Under the pieces are notes generated by a model. That model had not been told where the DNA came from and searched no databases. It was given only the letters and a program-made list of their open reading frames with translations. The position numbers and the translations under genes were made by a program. A stretch of 64,000 nt of DNA from contig NZ_CP016382.1 of assembly GCF_002813635.1 (NCBI RefSeq), positions 186,001 through 250,000 of the forward strand. The letters are read 5' to 3'. This DNA comes from Spiribacter roseus (GTDB lineage: Bacteria > Pseudomonadota > Gammaproteobacteria > Nitrococcales > Nitrococcaceae). Shown in pieces: positions 43,817-53,160 of this stretch; within the stretch, counting starts at the first letter, position 1, and each line of letters begins with the position of its first letter.

Positions 43817-43905
43817 CTTGCACACTCGTCACCCACATCGTTTATACACATCCCCGATACACATCCCCAATACACACTGATGGATACACATTGTGGGTGT
43901 GCAAG
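43817..43905. repeat. 13-bp ACAC tandem repeat array with terminal inverted repeats (copy B)
   Basis: Six units follow one another, starting at 43818, 43831, 43844, 43857, 43870 (14 bases) and 43884. The best conserved are ATACACATCCCCG and ATACACATCCCCA. The array is bounded by CTTGCACAC (43817-43825) and GTGTGCAAG (43897-43905), a perfect 9-base inverted repeat. It lies between the M24 gene and the vapC remnant. No ORF of interest is in 43728-43985. Confidence 0.7.
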
Positions 43906-43985: not shown

Positions 43986-44245
43986 CTAAATGGCGATCAG
44001 TCGGATTAACGATGAGTAAGGCGGCAGTCGGCGGTCGGTGGTGAGCAAGTAAGCAGGCAATCTGAGCGTTTGGGCAACCAGCAAGCGGTCGAATGGATCG
44101 CGATTTCCCAGAGGCTCGCGACACTGCAGATCACCCGATTGTCAGGGTTGCTGAGATCGGCCTGCGTGGCTTGAGGCAGTCGCTTGGGTTCTAGCAGTGC
44201 GTGCAGGAGGATGTTGGTGTCGAGTACAAAGCTGCGACTCTCCAT
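43986..44245 (-). pseudogene. vapC: vapC PIN-domain toxin, internally deleted
   Basis: The start is intact: SFVLDTNILLHALLEPKRL with the first catalytic Asp, then SLWEIAI with the Glu. Directly after this the frame jumps; in the third frame the sequence continues DPFDRLLVAQTLRLP and AYLLTTDRRLPPYSSLIRL to a stop at 43986-43988. These are the normal C-terminal PIN motifs. About 45 codons between the two blocks, as judged from usual PIN length (about 130 residues), are missing and the reading frame is broken. In frame 1 the product would be 79 residues with a nonsense tail. It lies 11 bases after an intact antitoxin gene. Confidence 0.8.
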
Positions 44246-44256
44246 GTCATCTCGCG

Positions 44257-44499
44257 TTATTCACTGCCGTAAAACATTGCTTCAATGGCTGACCGATTCT
44301 GATCGTCAAAATCAGCCGGCACCTGAAATTTACCCTTGCCGAGTCCAAGGCGTCGCGGTTCGGTGGTGCGAGTTTCCAGTGCGACTAGCCTCGCAACGGG
44401 CCTGCCTCCGCGAGCGATCACGATCTCTTTGCCTGCAGACGCCTCTTCGACATACCGAGAGAGGTGCGTCTTTGCCTCGTGAATATTGATCGAGTCCAT
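44257..44499 (-). CDS. Phd/YefM-type antitoxin of a vapBC-like pair
   Basis: 80 residues. The N-terminal DNA-binding Phd fold is seen in INIHEAKTHLSRYVEEASAGKEIVIARGGRPVARLV (quoted as family pattern IHEAKTHLSRYVEE and IARGGRPVARL). The acidic C-terminal part (VPADFDDQNRSAIEAMFYGSE) is the toxin-binding tail. The start at 44499 was chosen because it begins the fold; an earlier one at 44514 reads MCKDN. The toxin partner is broken, so this antitoxin is an orphan, perhaps kept for anti-addiction or simply not yet decayed. Confidence 0.85.
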   Translation of the reverse strand: MDSINIHEAKTHLSRYVEEASAGKEIVIARGGRPVARLVALETRTTEPRRLGLGKGKFQVPADFDDQNRSAIEAMFYGSE

Positions 44500-44505
44500 A
44501 TTGTC

Positions 44506-44518
44506 TTTACACATCCCC
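44506..44518 (+). repeat. Single 13-bp unit (copy C) upstream of the antitoxin gene
   Basis: TTTACACATCCCC differs at two positions from the ATACACATCCCC(G/A) units of the array at 43818-43896. It lies seven bases before the antitoxin start, in the 35-base gap from the hipA-like gene. One unit alone could be chance; its position beside the direct repeat supports a real copy. Confidence 0.35.
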
Positions 44519-44530
44519 TGGATTGCCCGG

Positions 44531-44564
44531 CGGATTACCCGATCTGTGCGGCCCTGCGCTCCAG
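44531..44564 (+). repeat. Direct repeat DR1 (3' end of the hipA-like gene)
   Basis: The last codons and stop of the hipA-like gene form the partner of DR2 at 43951-43983 (same orientation, 550 bases apart). Duplication of a gene end around a cassette is what integration into a gene's 3' end leaves behind. Confidence 0.5.
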
Positions 44565-45953
44565 GGTACGGGCGTTCGCCTCGCCGGCCCGTCTCAACGC
44601 GGTCTCAATATGCGGCGTCTCGGCGACGGTCGTCCAGAAAACAATCGCCGCCTCGGCTGCGGCGTGCCAGTCGGCGAATTCGGCGGGTTGTGGCATCGGT
44701 GGGTCGAAGGCCGGCTCCCGCATCTCGCCACTCGTTATTGGCGCATAGGCCATCGGCAGCATGTCGTAGGCCGGCGTGGGCTCAAAGCGGGGACGGCCTG
44801 ACCGTTGTCCGTCAGCCGCGACGGGTCGAAAGGCCACGTTCCCCGGGTGCATGTCGGAATTGGCGATCATCTGTCCGAACCACCACTGCCGGCTCACTGC
44901 CACGCATCCCGCCGCATCCAGCCAGCCATGGCGATGCAATGCCGCAATCTGCACACGCCAGTCGTGACTGAACACACCCACCAGCGACGGATCGATCGCT
45001 GCGAGGGTCGAGACCGGACGGCGTCCGAAGGCGCCCTGTCGATCGAAGCGCTCGATCTCCAGGAAACGCCGCGACTCGGCATCAATGACCCTCGTTTGCG
45101 ACGCCTTGACGCCCGCTATCCCGGCCAGCGCTCGTGCTGCGAGATGCTCGCAGTAGAGCAGATCCCGCCAGCGCTGCACCACGGCTGATCCATCGTCCGG
45201 CGCGGAGAACTTGACGATGACCGGGGTTGACGCACCGGTCTCGGAATTCATGCACAAGGCCGTGAACTTGGGAAATTCGCCACCGGCACTGGACGCGGGC
45301 AAGATCTCCGCAATCGCCCGCCTGGCGAGCGCCGGGAAATCTGTCTGTCGATTCGACACGGATATGGCCGACTTGCCCTCGGCACGCTCCCGGTACCAGC
45401 ACTCGATGGATGCCTGCCCCACCACCAGGTCTCCGGGCAGATCGGCGCCGTGCCGGCCGATGACCCGCAGGATGTCGTCGTCACTCCACAAGGCCGGTTC
45501 GGCGGGGACCGGCAGCCTGCCCTCAAGTGCCCGGGCATAACGACGCCCGATGTAGCCCTGCGGGCGCATATCGAGGATCGGATAGGGCAGGCTCTCCCAC
45601 CAGCCATCGCGCTGCGCCTCGTCCATCGGCCAGCCCAGGGCCTGCAGGTCGAAATGACAGCCCTCGGGCGCGATCGGTGTAAGCAGCCCGGCGTCATGGG
45701 CCCGGCCCTCAGTATCGATACTCATGACCGGGAGCGACGTCTCCTCGATGCCAGCGACCTGCCTGCGCAGGGCGTAGCGGCGGCGCGACGCCTGTCCGCT
45801 CTGTAGCCAGCCCCCGGAGTGGGCCTTGAGGTAGCGGTGCAGGGTGGCGAGGCTGACGCCCAGATCGCGGGCCAGACGAGGGCCGCTCACCGGCCCCTGC
45901 GCCTGCAATGTCTGCGCGACTTGAGACCACTGGATGCGTGATGGACGCGCCAT
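44535..45953 (-). CDS. HipA-family serine/threonine kinase toxin, YjjJ type
   Basis: 472 residues. An N-terminal winged-helix domain (VAQTLQAQGPVSGPRLARDLGVSLATLHRYL, here cited as ARDLGVSLATLHRYL) replaces the usual HipA N-lobe start. The kinase part has the ATP-binding GEFPKFTAL and VIVKFSAP with the lysine, and the catalytic loop NSDMHPGNVAF with Asp and Asn, followed by AYDMLPMAYAP. YjjJ-like HipA proteins occur without a HipB partner, the built-in DNA-binding domain possibly replacing it; E. coli YjjJ overproduction slows growth. No hipB is seen next to it. Confidence 0.88.
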   Translation of the reverse strand: MARPSRIQWSQVAQTLQAQGPVSGPRLARDLGVSLATLHRYLKAHSGGWLQSGQASRRRYALRRQVAGIEETSLPVMSIDTEGRAHDAGLLTPIAPEGCHFDLQALGWPMDEAQRDGWWESLPYPILDMRPQGYIGRRYARALEGRLPVPAEPALWSDDDILRVIGRHGADLPGDLVVGQASIECWYRERAEGKSAISVSNRQTDFPALARRAIAEILPASSAGGEFPKFTALCMNSETGASTPVIVKFSAPDDGSAVVQRWRDLLYCEHLAARALAGIAGVKASQTRVIDAESRRFLEIERFDRQGAFGRRPVSTLAAIDPSLVGVFSHDWRVQIAALHRHGWLDAAGCVAVSRQWWFGQMIANSDMHPGNVAFRPVAADGQRSGRPRFEPTPAYDMLPMAYAPITSGEMREPAFDPPMPQPAEFADWHAAAEAAIVFWTTVAETPHIETALRRAGEANARTLERRAAQIG

Positions 45954-50181: not shown

Positions 50182-50658
50182 ATGGCCACACCGGCAATCA
50201 ATATCGGGATCGAGGAAAGCGCCCGCGTCGAGATCGCGGAGGGGGTCAGTCGTGTGCTGGCTGACAGCTATTCGCTGTACCTGAAAACCCATAACTTCCA
50301 CTGGAACGTGACCGGGCCGATGTTCAACTCCTTGCACAACATGTTCGAGGAGCAGTACACCGAGCTTGCCACGGCGGTGGATGACATCGCTGAGCGCATC
50401 CGCGCACTGGGGGCCCGCGCGCCGGGTAGCTACAGTGAGTATGCAAAGCTGACCTCCATCCCCGAGGAGAGCAGCACGCCGGATGCCCAAGAGATGATCC
50501 GTCAGTTGGTCACGGGTCATGAGATCGTCGCCCGCACGGCGCGCGAGGTGTTTGCGACGGCGGATGAGGCGCATGACGAGCCGACCGCCGATCTACTGAC
50601 CGAGCGCATGCAGCTTCATGAGAAGACGGCGTGGATGCTGCGCAGCATGCTGGAGTGA
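50182..50658 (+). CDS. dps: Dps-family DNA-protecting ferritin-like protein
   Basis: 158 residues. The inter-subunit ferroxidase site is visible in THNFHWNVTGPMF (His) and FEEQYTELATAVDDIAERIRALG (Glu/Asp). Dodecamers oxidise ferrous iron with hydrogen peroxide and protect DNA in stress. The start at 50182 follows AAGGAGG at 50169-50175. The N-terminal tail is short and little basic, so DNA binding is uncertain. It is monocistronic with a strong terminator. Confidence 0.92.
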   Translation: MATPAINIGIEESARVEIAEGVSRVLADSYSLYLKTHNFHWNVTGPMFNSLHNMFEEQYTELATAVDDIAERIRALGARAPGSYSEYAKLTSIPEESSTPDAQEMIRQLVTGHEIVARTAREVFATADEAHDEPTADLLTERMQLHEKTAWMLRSMLE

Positions 50659-50773: not shown

Positions 50774-50865
50774 GTGAACACGCGCGCAACACACCGGCTA
50801 TCCACACGCCTCATCCACACGCCTCATCCACATCGCGAGGATGTGGGTGCGGCATACACACGCGG
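50774..50865 (+). repeat. 13-bp ACAC tandem repeat array (copy D) downstream of the ccdAB fusion
   Basis: Five contiguous 13-base units from 50774 to 50838, two of them the identical ATCCACACGCCTC. An inverted piece (GGATGTGGGTGCGG) at 50839-50852 and a further unit CATACACACGCGG at 50853-50865 follow. CCACAT...ATGTGG can form a hairpin. The array ends 11 bases from the stop of the ccdAB fusion gene. Confidence 0.7.
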
Positions 50866-50876
50866 CAGCGGCGCGC

Positions 50877-51614
50877 CTAAATGCCGCCGAACACAAAGTC
50901 GATGGCGCGCATGATCTGCTGCGTCTCGCCGGTGAGGGATCCCGCCGGTTTGCCGAGCGCGTTATCCGATACCGTCATGAGCCGATCGACCACCACGACG
51001 AAATGGCTGCCGGGCGAGCACTCGAGCGCAACGATCGGGTGGGCTTCCTGCAGCGGGCGTTCGAAATGGGCCGTGGGCACGAGCGGCGCGACAATCGCCC
51101 GACCGAGGGGTTGGAGCAGCGAGTTCTGCAGGCTGACGAGAAACGGCGCCCGCGAGTCAATGCGGAACTTGTCGGCCCGGTATACCGGGTAGGTCGTCGA
51201 GGCGAGCTGGCCGCTCAGCCGTCGATCCACCGATTCCTTGAGAATCGGCACACGATCGATCATCGCCCGGACCCACTCGTCGGTCAGAAAGTCGTCATGA
51301 CCGTTATGACCATCTGCGCCATCGGTGCCGTTAGCGTCGTCGATATCGTCGATATTGATGAAGGGTATTGGCCTGGACGGCCGATTGTCCCGGGCGCTCG
51401 GGGGGTCAACGCGATTCTCAATCAGGGCGCGGCGATTGCGCTTGAGCCAGGTACGGCAGCGTAGTGCATGCAGTGATTCACGCAGATGATCCTCAAAGAA
51501 TCCCGAGAGGTTCATCTCCAGCGCCCGGGCCTCGTCGAGGAGATCGGGATCGATGCTTACATTGATGCGCCTTTTCTGAAGCGGCATGCGGGGCGTTCGA
51601 GTACCGAGAACCAT
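50877..51614 (-). CDS. CcdA-CcdB fusion protein (single-chain type II toxin-antitoxin)
   Basis: 245 residues from the start at 51614 (51587 is the alternative; a longer frame to 51779 runs through repeat DNA). Residues about 12-68 are CcdA-like: RRINVSIDPDLLDEARALEM, then NLSGFFEDHLRESL and LRCRTWLKRNRRALIE, a ribbon-helix-helix antitoxin. A linker (about 70-135) is acidic and Gly/His-rich in the middle (NGTDGADGHNGHDD). Residues about 140-245 are CcdB-like: TYPVYRADKFRIDSRAPFLV, SLQNSLLQPLGRAIVAPL and the end IMRAIDFVFGGI. F-plasmid CcdB ends in FWGI, where the Trp is needed to poison gyrase; here that Trp is Gly. The two are normally separate overlapping genes; no stop or frameshift is seen between them here. 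The product may be self-neutralised, or cut to release the toxin. Confidence 0.78.
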   Translation of the reverse strand: MVLGTRTPRMPLQKRRINVSIDPDLLDEARALEMNLSGFFEDHLRESLHALRCRTWLKRNRRALIENRVDPPSARDNRPSRPIPFINIDDIDDANGTDGADGHNGHDDFLTDEWVRAMIDRVPILKESVDRRLSGQLASTTYPVYRADKFRIDSRAPFLVSLQNSLLQPLGRAIVAPLVPTAHFERPLQEAHPIVALECSPGSHFVVVVDRLMTVSDNALGKPAGSLTGETQQIMRAIDFVFGGI

Positions 51615-51628
51615 GTCGTCGTCTGCCT

Positions 51629-51680
51629 GGTTAGTGTGTATGGGGCATGTGTATCGGGCGTGTGTATTCAGCGTGTGCGC
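51629..51680 (-). repeat. 13-bp ACAC tandem repeat array (copy E) upstream of the ccdAB fusion
   Basis: On the minus strand four units follow one another: GCGCACACGCTGA, ATACACACGCCCG, ATACACATGCCCC and ATACACACTAACC, ending 14 bases before the fusion gene start. It is nearly identical to the core of copy B over about 36 bases, but in opposite genomic orientation. The remaining gap to 51879 contains only the metY promoter region. Confidence 0.7.
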
Positions 51681-51879: not shown

Positions 51880-53160
51880 ATGAAACTCGAGACTCAGGCC
51901 ATCCACAGCGGCTATTCCCCGGATCCGACGACCAAGGCGGTGGCGGTGCCGATCTACCAGACCACCTCGTACGCCTTTGACGACACCCAGCATGGGGCGG
52001 ACCTGTTTGACCTGAAGGTCGAGGGCAACATCTACAGCCGCATCATGAACCCGACCAACGGTGCGCTTGAGCAGCGCGTGGCGGAGATGGAAGGCGGCAT
52101 CGCCGGACTGGCCGTGGCTTCGGGGATGGCGGCCATCACCTATGCCATTCAGTGCATCACCCGTGTCGGCGATAACATCGTCACCACCAGTCAGCTCTAC
52201 GGCGGCACCTACAATCTGTTCGCCCACGCCCTGCCCAACATGGGCATTGAGGTGCGGTTTGCGAGCGGTGATGATCCGGCCGCCATCGAGGCACTGATCG
52301 ATGACAACACCAAGGCGGTGTATGCCGAGACCGTCGGCAACCCCAACGGCAACGTGGTGGACATCGAAGCCTTCGCCACCATCGCCCATCGCCATGGTGT
52401 GCCGCTGATCGTCGATAACACGGTGCCGACGCCGGTACTCTGGCGGCCCATCGAGCAGGGCGCCGACATCGTCATCCACTCGCTGACCAAGGCGATGGGT
52501 GGGCACGGCACCACCGTGGGCGGCGTAATCGTCGACTCAGGCAACTTCCCCTGGGCGGACTACGCCAAGAAATTCCCCATGCTCACCGAGCCTGATCCGT
52601 CCTACCACGGCGTGGTCTACACCGAGGCGCTGGGCGCGGCGGCGTATATCGGGCGCTGCCGGGTCGCACCGCTTCGCAACATGGGCGCGGCACTCTCGCC
52701 GATGAACGCTTTTTTGCTGATGCAGGGCATTGAGACCGTGCCCCTGCGCATGGCCCGTCACGGCGAAAACGCCATTGCGCTGGCCGAGCATCTGAAAGCG
52801 CATCCGGGCGTGATCTGGGTGAAGTACGCCGGCCTGCCTGACAGTCCCTACTATCCGCTGGTGCAGAAATACATGGGCGGCAACAACGCCGGCGGCATCC
52901 TCAGTTTTGGGATCAAGGGCGGCGAAGAAGCGGGGGCGAAGTTCATCGATGCGCTGCAGCTCATCGTGCGTCTGGTCAACATCGGCGACGCCAAGTCGCT
53001 GGCCTGCCATCCGGCCACCACCACGCACCGCCAGTTGAACGACGAGGAGCTGGCGAGCGCCGGGGTCAGCCGTGACATGGTGCGGATCTCGGTAGGCATC
53101 GAGCACATCGACGACATCCTCGCCGATGTCGATCAGGCGCTGGCGGCGGCGGGACGCTAG
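51880..53160 (+). CDS. metY: O-acetylhomoserine sulfhydrylase
   Basis: 426 residues, PLP-dependent Cys/Met metabolism family, of the longer OAH/OAS sulfhydrylase type. The PLP lysine (about residue 204) is in IHSLTKAMGGHGTTVGG, with PIYQTTSYAFDD, NPTNGALEQRVAEMEGG and HPATTTHRQL as family marks. It makes homocysteine from O-acetylhomoserine and sulfide. A TATAAA -10-like box lies at 51839-51844 with no convincing -35. No SAM riboswitch was recognised in the 100-base leader. Confidence 0.93.
   Translation: MKLETQAIHSGYSPDPTTKAVAVPIYQTTSYAFDDTQHGADLFDLKVEGNIYSRIMNPTNGALEQRVAEMEGGIAGLAVASGMAAITYAIQCITRVGDNIVTTSQLYGGTYNLFAHALPNMGIEVRFASGDDPAAIEALIDDNTKAVYAETVGNPNGNVVDIEAFATIAHRHGVPLIVDNTVPTPVLWRPIEQGADIVIHSLTKAMGGHGTTVGGVIVDSGNFPWADYAKKFPMLTEPDPSYHGVVYTEALGAAAYIGRCRVAPLRNMGAALSPMNAFLLMQGIETVPLRMARHGENAIALAEHLKAHPGVIWVKYAGLPDSPYYPLVQKYMGGNNAGGILSFGIKGGEEAGAKFIDALQLIVRLVNIGDAKSLACHPATTTHRQLNDEELASAGVSRDMVRISVGIEHIDDILADVDQALAAAGR

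Follow-up and report, generated by a model that had tools for sequence, protein, structure and literature searches.

CcdAB is the textbook toxin-antitoxin (TA) pair, and the usual logic of such a pair requires a separate, short-lived antitoxin. CcdA binds its toxin through a C-terminal tail. Proteins in which antitoxin and toxin are fused have been described for other families. For toxins of the RelE/ParE fold, 195 TA fusions, ParD-ParE among them, have been reported (PMC11980606), and that paper contains no mention of CcdB. EzeT is an auto-regulated fusion of a zeta-type antitoxin and toxin for which an origin by operon fusion has been proposed (PMC4826407), and CapRel is a fused TA protein of phage defence (PMC13423816). 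A 2016 paper reports a TA fusion from Xanthomonas oryzae pv. oryzicola and names 'Spiribacter sp.' as the sole other case of a similar arrangement (PMC4861877); the fusion was called very rare, and in the text available to us the data are not shown and the family is not named.

An earlier note on the DNA analysed here read one gene as a CcdA-CcdB fusion and could name no described natural example. We found no such description in the literature searched (mostly titles and abstract openings), nor any in the available part of PMC2701414, and to that extent the statement stands. Against it is the 2016 'Spiribacter sp.' fusion of unnamed family, which may belong to the same family as the protein described below. 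No Xanthomonas record is found among the best 80 of the 186 relatives in the genome-contig scan.

A single reading frame for CcdA and CcdB

The following features lie at the fusion locus of the window (the whole 64,000-nucleotide stretch of DNA that was analysed, from the halophilic gammaproteobacterium Spiribacter roseus):

50877..51614, minus strand: fused ccdA-ccdB gene, an open frame of 245 amino acids plus stop, with both Pfam domains above cut-off
51423..51575, minus strand: CcdA-like ribbon-helix-helix part, residues 14-64 (PF07362, 50.4 bits), with modelled helices
51198..51416, minus strand: linker, residues 67-139, acidic and Gly/His-rich at approximately 85-108, then strongly conserved at 109-139
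50883..51191, minus strand: CcdB-like part, residues 142-244 (PF01845, 54.2 bits), its model matching Vibrio fischeri CcdB best
50880..50888, minus strand: C-terminal Gly-Gly-Ile, residues 243-245; the Gly-Ile end is kept, with Gly at the position of the F-type CcdB Trp
50182..50658, plus strand: dps-like gene, a conserved neighbour marking the fusion locus
51880..53160, plus strand: O-acetylhomoserine sulfhydrylase-like gene (metY), the neighbour on the other side of the fusion

The gene is thus located between two neighbours that we take, from sequence resemblance, to be dps and metY. The earlier note had placed one uninterrupted frame with a CcdA-like and a CcdB-like half at 50877-51614. 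These coordinates are borne out, the strand (which was not given) is minus, and the profile search that it proposed finds both halves above their Pfam cut-offs: in hmmscan, CcdA scores 50.4 bits against a cut-off of 22.4 at residues 14-64, and CcdB scores 54.2 bits against 28.6 at residues 142-244. The acidic Gly/His linker, the FVFGGI C-terminus and Met118 that it described are all present. A third Pfam match, to PemK/MazF over the CcdB part, is below cut-off (14 bits against 23.1), and both halves fall far under the cut-offs of the NCBIfam CcdA and CcdB equivalog models (22.1 against 100 bits and 17.5 against 147 bits, respectively). The nearest solved relatives by sequence are V. fischeri CcdB (2kmt, E 1e-4) and CcdA 2adl (E 0.008). 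In PHROGs, each half weakly matches a family of unknown function (E 4e-7 and 2e-5), and the protein matches no PADLOC defence family at E <= 0.01. At E <= 0.001, the genome carrying the fusion (one contig of 1,930,413 bases) contains no further CcdA or CcdB match.

The same fused frame is present in a second genome of the genus (G001), where the protein is 94% identical and the linker is three residues shorter, a 9-nt in-frame length difference. This is the recurrence in relatives that the earlier note had asked for; in a scan of the genus, the fusion protein is matched in 4 of 14 genomes, its own included. By Nei-Gojobori counts on these two sequences only, the genes differ by 41 synonymous and 17 non-synonymous changes, giving a w of 0.12 for the whole gene. 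Among its parts, w is 0.115 for residues 1-66, 0.17 for the linker (67-139), 0.08 for residues 109-139 and 0.07 for CcdB, which with 4 non-synonymous changes in 106 codons is the most constrained main part. In the same comparison, w is 0.017 for dps and 0.003 for metY. Purifying selection thus acts on the two halves and on residues 109-139 of the linker, less strongly than on the neighbouring genes, and selection on both halves is not what is expected of a decaying gene.

A ccdAB type II TA module consists of two separate proteins, and here there is one frame with no stop between the halves. Antitoxin and toxin domains instead share one conserved, selected reading frame, as in a fused TA. The Spiribacter protein is a true natural single-polypeptide CcdA-CcdB fusion. 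Such a naturally selected single-chain form breaks the logic of the separate antitoxin.

Other TA-like genes are found in the window. At 44006-44514, a Phd/YefM-type antitoxin gene (PF02604, 48.4 bits) is followed by a short PIN-like frame; this scores 18.3 bits, under the cut-off of 23.6, and looks like a VapC-type toxin cut short. A HipA-like protein (PF07804, 58.3 bits) is encoded at 44535-45953, with a possible N-terminal helix-turn-helix just under the cut-off; by eye, this gene has a counterpart beside the same M24 peptidase gene in another Spiribacter genome, G013 (L239).

Rarity and history of the locus

Matches to PF01845 occur in 11 of 54 genomes of the order, 44 of 369 of the class and 87 of 398 of the phylum, these samples overlapping. 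Every listed match in an open frame of at least 165 amino acids (a threshold chosen here) was examined for CcdA in the same frame, using Pfam on six frames and a locally built CcdA model on every compared locus. The loci were the best matches of the order, class and phylum searches together with the best 80 of the 186 genome-contig relatives, so a fusion among the remaining relatives would be missed. This gave 166 distinct CcdB-bearing frames, a set of best matches rather than a random sample, of which 154 have CcdA upstream or in frame. CcdA and CcdB share one frame only in the fusion's own genome (G000) and G001. No relative of the fusion was found in phages, viral contigs or the first genome-contig scan, and in plasmids one CcdA half was matched and nothing more.

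Within the genus, the site between dps and metY has several states. In G012, the sister genome of the fusion's own, there is no fusion gene and the gap is approximately 200 nt; in G010, likewise without the fusion, it is approximately 250 nt. In G002, the same place holds a 58-codon in-frame remnant (L009 3335-3511) that retains the start, the first CcdA strand, pieces of the acidic linker and of CcdB, and the FVFGGI end. Three deletions separate it from the full gene (165, 180 and 207 nt, from block offsets), each a multiple of three; if neutral, this would happen by chance approximately 1 time in 27. The remnant may be a selected miniature protein. The fusion gene is dispensable, being absent from the sister genome and reduced to a remnant in G002. 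As linker and CcdB are in frame with each other in the remnant, the fusion predates the divergence of G002, barring transfer of the locus between species.

A separate ccdA-ccdB pair is found within the genus only in G013, where it adjoins dps (L010 2441-3245), with metY a few kilobases further away. Both genes are above Pfam cut-offs, and their products share 53% (CcdA) and 29% (CcdB) identity with the fusion. By eye, the G013 CcdA also seems to be without the usual C-terminal tail (it ends KSRTIPTFGTRTR). When 10 genomes are placed in an aspS tree, G002 and G006 lie outside (G001,(G013,(G000,G012))), their own order unresolved, with a support of 89/93 for the G013 node. The separate pair thus falls within the lineages that carry the fusion and cannot be taken as merely ancestral to it; replacement or exchange at the dps-metY locus is likely on the basis of this tree. 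With the pair so nested, loss of an intervening stop stays a putative origin of the fusion.

Short repeats flank the gene on both sides:

51634..51678, minus strand: tandemly repeated 13-nt units (YACACAYNCCCNA) ahead of the start codon; candidate operator, akin to a dispersed intergenic repeat
50796..50833, plus strand: 13-nt repeats of related sequence on the downstream side of the gene, in inverse orientation to the upstream set, matched at up to 3 mismatches

The upstream repeats lie 20-64 nt before the start codon. Allowing up to 3 mismatches, the pattern has one further place of occurrence in the same genome, at 43.8 kb of the window (43817-43905), and the reversed control gives 2 matches. 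One form of the pattern has 4 matches in the window, a number reached in 24 of 100 shuffles and so not above chance; another has 5, reached in 0 of 100 and so above chance. In G013, the same sequence lies within a scattered palindrome of approximately 90 nt (19 pattern matches; control 0), which weakens the case for the repeats as a dedicated operator. A role as the ends of a mobile cassette finds no support. The core of the palindrome is TTGCACAY...ATACACAY plus its inverse (G013 loci L238-L245), and it forms a tandem array with a 129-nt period at G013:C1:1942431-1942967.

Function of the two halves

The fusion retains the ribbon-helix-helix part of CcdA and the helix with Trp56. In the full-length model, built from rows for the fusion and CcdA only (separate CcdB rows were not placeable on the fusion by MAFFT), helices span residues 23-31 and 36-59 and the mean pLDDT per ten residues is 76-90 over residues 21-60; outside CcdA the model is poor (mean pLDDT 47) and silent on the packing of the halves. 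No CcdA tail of the GxFxDxxR type is recognisable in the linker: the best score is 5.1 bits, equalled by 240 of 2000 shuffled linkers. Under the same scoring, the last 20 residues of 143 CcdAs have a mean of 22.4 bits, with a matrix built from those same 143 proteins. Eleven of the 143 score below the 5.1 bits of the linker, so some ordinary CcdAs are also without the tail. FLTDEW, a candidate for a canonical tail hidden in the linker, is unsupported by the tail scoring.

A model of the CcdB half (26 aligned rows, pLDDT 81.8, pTM 0.77) finds V. fischeri CcdB as its best structure matches (3tcj_B, E 4.1e-8; 4elz_C, E 4.9e-8), with a TM-score of 0.87-0.89 by target length. The predicted fold is that of CcdB, which is consistency and not independent proof because CcdB relatives went into building the model. 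A quick, unfinished CcdB tree, which has no resolution at its base and in which long branches meet, gives the fusion CcdBs a long stem of 1.66 changes per column.

The protein keeps the Gly-Ile C-terminus of F and V. fischeri CcdB (Gly244 and Ile245), with Gly in 70 and Ile in 43 of the 73 comparison rows; many CcdBs of another subtype have different ends. The earlier note had taken the Gly at the F-type Trp position as a possible sign of lost killing. The Gly is present, and as such a sign it is weak: among the 166 distinct CcdB frames, 73 end x-G-hydrophobic like the fusion and one of these has Trp at the third-last position, and V. fischeri CcdB, which was crystallised with GyrA14 (PDB 4elz), ends ...LITGI. 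Gly at this position therefore says little about killing, and for x-G-hydrophobic ends the substitution is rejected as proof of its loss. Of the remaining 93 frames, 66 carry a Trp among their final five residues, at an end of another kind, the -TRAWA type; most frames of this subtype came from the genome-contig scan that was seeded with it.

Elsewhere in the CcdB half, the fusion has T for Q at residue 141 (Q in 59 of 73 rows), A for N at 147 (N in 59), S for D at 161 (D in 60) and A for R at 173 (R in 63). Residue 166 is Leu in the fusion's own genome and Arg in G001; we align it with Ile24 of F CcdB, a gyrase contact, so that G001 probably has Arg at a gyrase contact position. On the host side, GyrA Arg462 is retained in all six genomes examined; a change at this residue is reported to give CcdB resistance (PMC10886550).

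We favour, at a rough probability of 0.45, the reading that the protein is a domesticated DNA-binding single chain rather than a self-restrained active toxin. In an ancestral Spiribacter, a ccdAB operon located at dps-metY would probably have become one reading frame. The N-terminal ribbon-helix-helix part would dimerise and bind DNA, probably its own promoter, and the C-terminal part would still fold as CcdB and probably still dimerise. The chain would then be a self-contained regulator, and its CcdB half would have given up classical gyrase poisoning. The absence of a recognisable CcdA tail, the changed CcdB residues and the G001 Arg suggest such taming, as it makes more sense for a toxin to be carried in a chain that lacks the neutralising tail once that toxin has been tamed. 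Domestication explains these three features together with the long CcdB stem and the dispensability of the gene. Counting against it are the intact Gly-Ile C-terminus, the Arg462 retained in host GyrA and the low w of the CcdB half (0.07), which is also expected of an active toxin.

These last observations fit a protein that is still toxic and restrains itself, which we regard as the main rival and a real possibility, short of an even chance. Here the CcdA part and the tether would hold the CcdB part off gyrase until the acidic linker is cut or remodelled, by a protease or by a trigger such as a phage protein (compare CapRel). Self-restraint accounts for why the CcdB half (w 0.07) and residues 109-139 (w 0.08) are so tightly constrained, and it agrees with the modelled fold like that of V. 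fischeri CcdB (3tcj, 4elz), the Gly-Ile end and the host Arg462; fused antitoxin-toxin proteins elsewhere can be functional, as described in the available portions of PMC4826407 and PMC11980606. It is at odds with the unrecognisable CcdA tail, the changes at conserved CcdB residues and the Leu-to-Arg change at residue 166 in G001. The lack of a PADLOC family match speaks against a known defence system only. More specifically, and somewhat unlikely in our estimation, the protein would be a single-chain gyrase poison with its own DNA-binding antitoxin, freed by cutting or remodelling of the acidic linker, with the tether replacing the CcdA tail. If so, it would be a CcdAB system with no possibility of the free antitoxin decaying selectively.

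It is improbable that the frame yields two products, with an internal start (GTG129 or ATG118) giving free CcdB beside a fusion that serves as antitoxin and repressor, so that the locus would still be a two-protein module. GTG129 is about where a separate ccdB would start, with a Shine-Dalgarno duplex of -5.4 kcal/mol (-7.3 in G001), and ATG118 has -5.5 in both genomes, as against -3.6 for the fusion's own start. However, the spacing at GTG129 is only 3 nt, and among 129 internal in-frame start codons of six neighbouring genes 16 reach -5 or better and 3 reach -7, so the signal for an internal ccdB start is hardly above background.

A frame artefact or missed stop (the sequencing error that the earlier note had named as a refutation), or a decaying pseudogene open by chance, deserves almost no credence: the shrunken remnant in G002 and the empty site in G012 are what it has in its favour, and it is excluded in practice because G001 carries the same fused frame, with 41 synonymous against 17 non-synonymous changes, the resulting w and an in-frame indel.

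Between domestication and self-restraint, the fusion is a ready system in which to ask if an antitoxin on a tether is able to keep its toxin in check, or if becoming fused is a step towards domestication. Comparison can test this, as there are species that carry the fusion, one that has two separate genes next to dps, one with a remnant and others with none of these.

Comparison with known systems

Relative to the ccdAB modules of the F plasmid and the V. fischeri chromosome, the fusion has the same two Pfam domains in the same order. It differs in being one chain with no recognisable CcdA tail, a 73-residue linker and diverged CcdB residues.

With ParD-ParE and the other RelE/ParE mono-gene modules, as far as these are described in the available part of the source, the fusion shares an antitoxin placed before the toxin in one gene. 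ParD, like CcdA, is an antitoxin of the ribbon-helix-helix type, and gyrase is a target of ParE too; the toxin of the Spiribacter protein differs in its predicted fold, which is CcdB/MazF-like. EzeT, from the portion of its description at hand, is likewise a single chain with antitoxin N-terminal and toxin C-terminal, unlike the fusion in that its toxin is a UDP-N-acetylglucosamine kinase. CapRel, on the same partial basis, resembles the Spiribacter protein in having toxin and antitoxin fused, and its toxin is different from CcdB. The fusion reported in 2016, as worded in the text available, also has antitoxin and toxin domains in one protein. Fused TA proteins are thus already known as a kind; within that kind the CcdA-CcdB fusion would be a new form, and it may already have been glimpsed in 2016.
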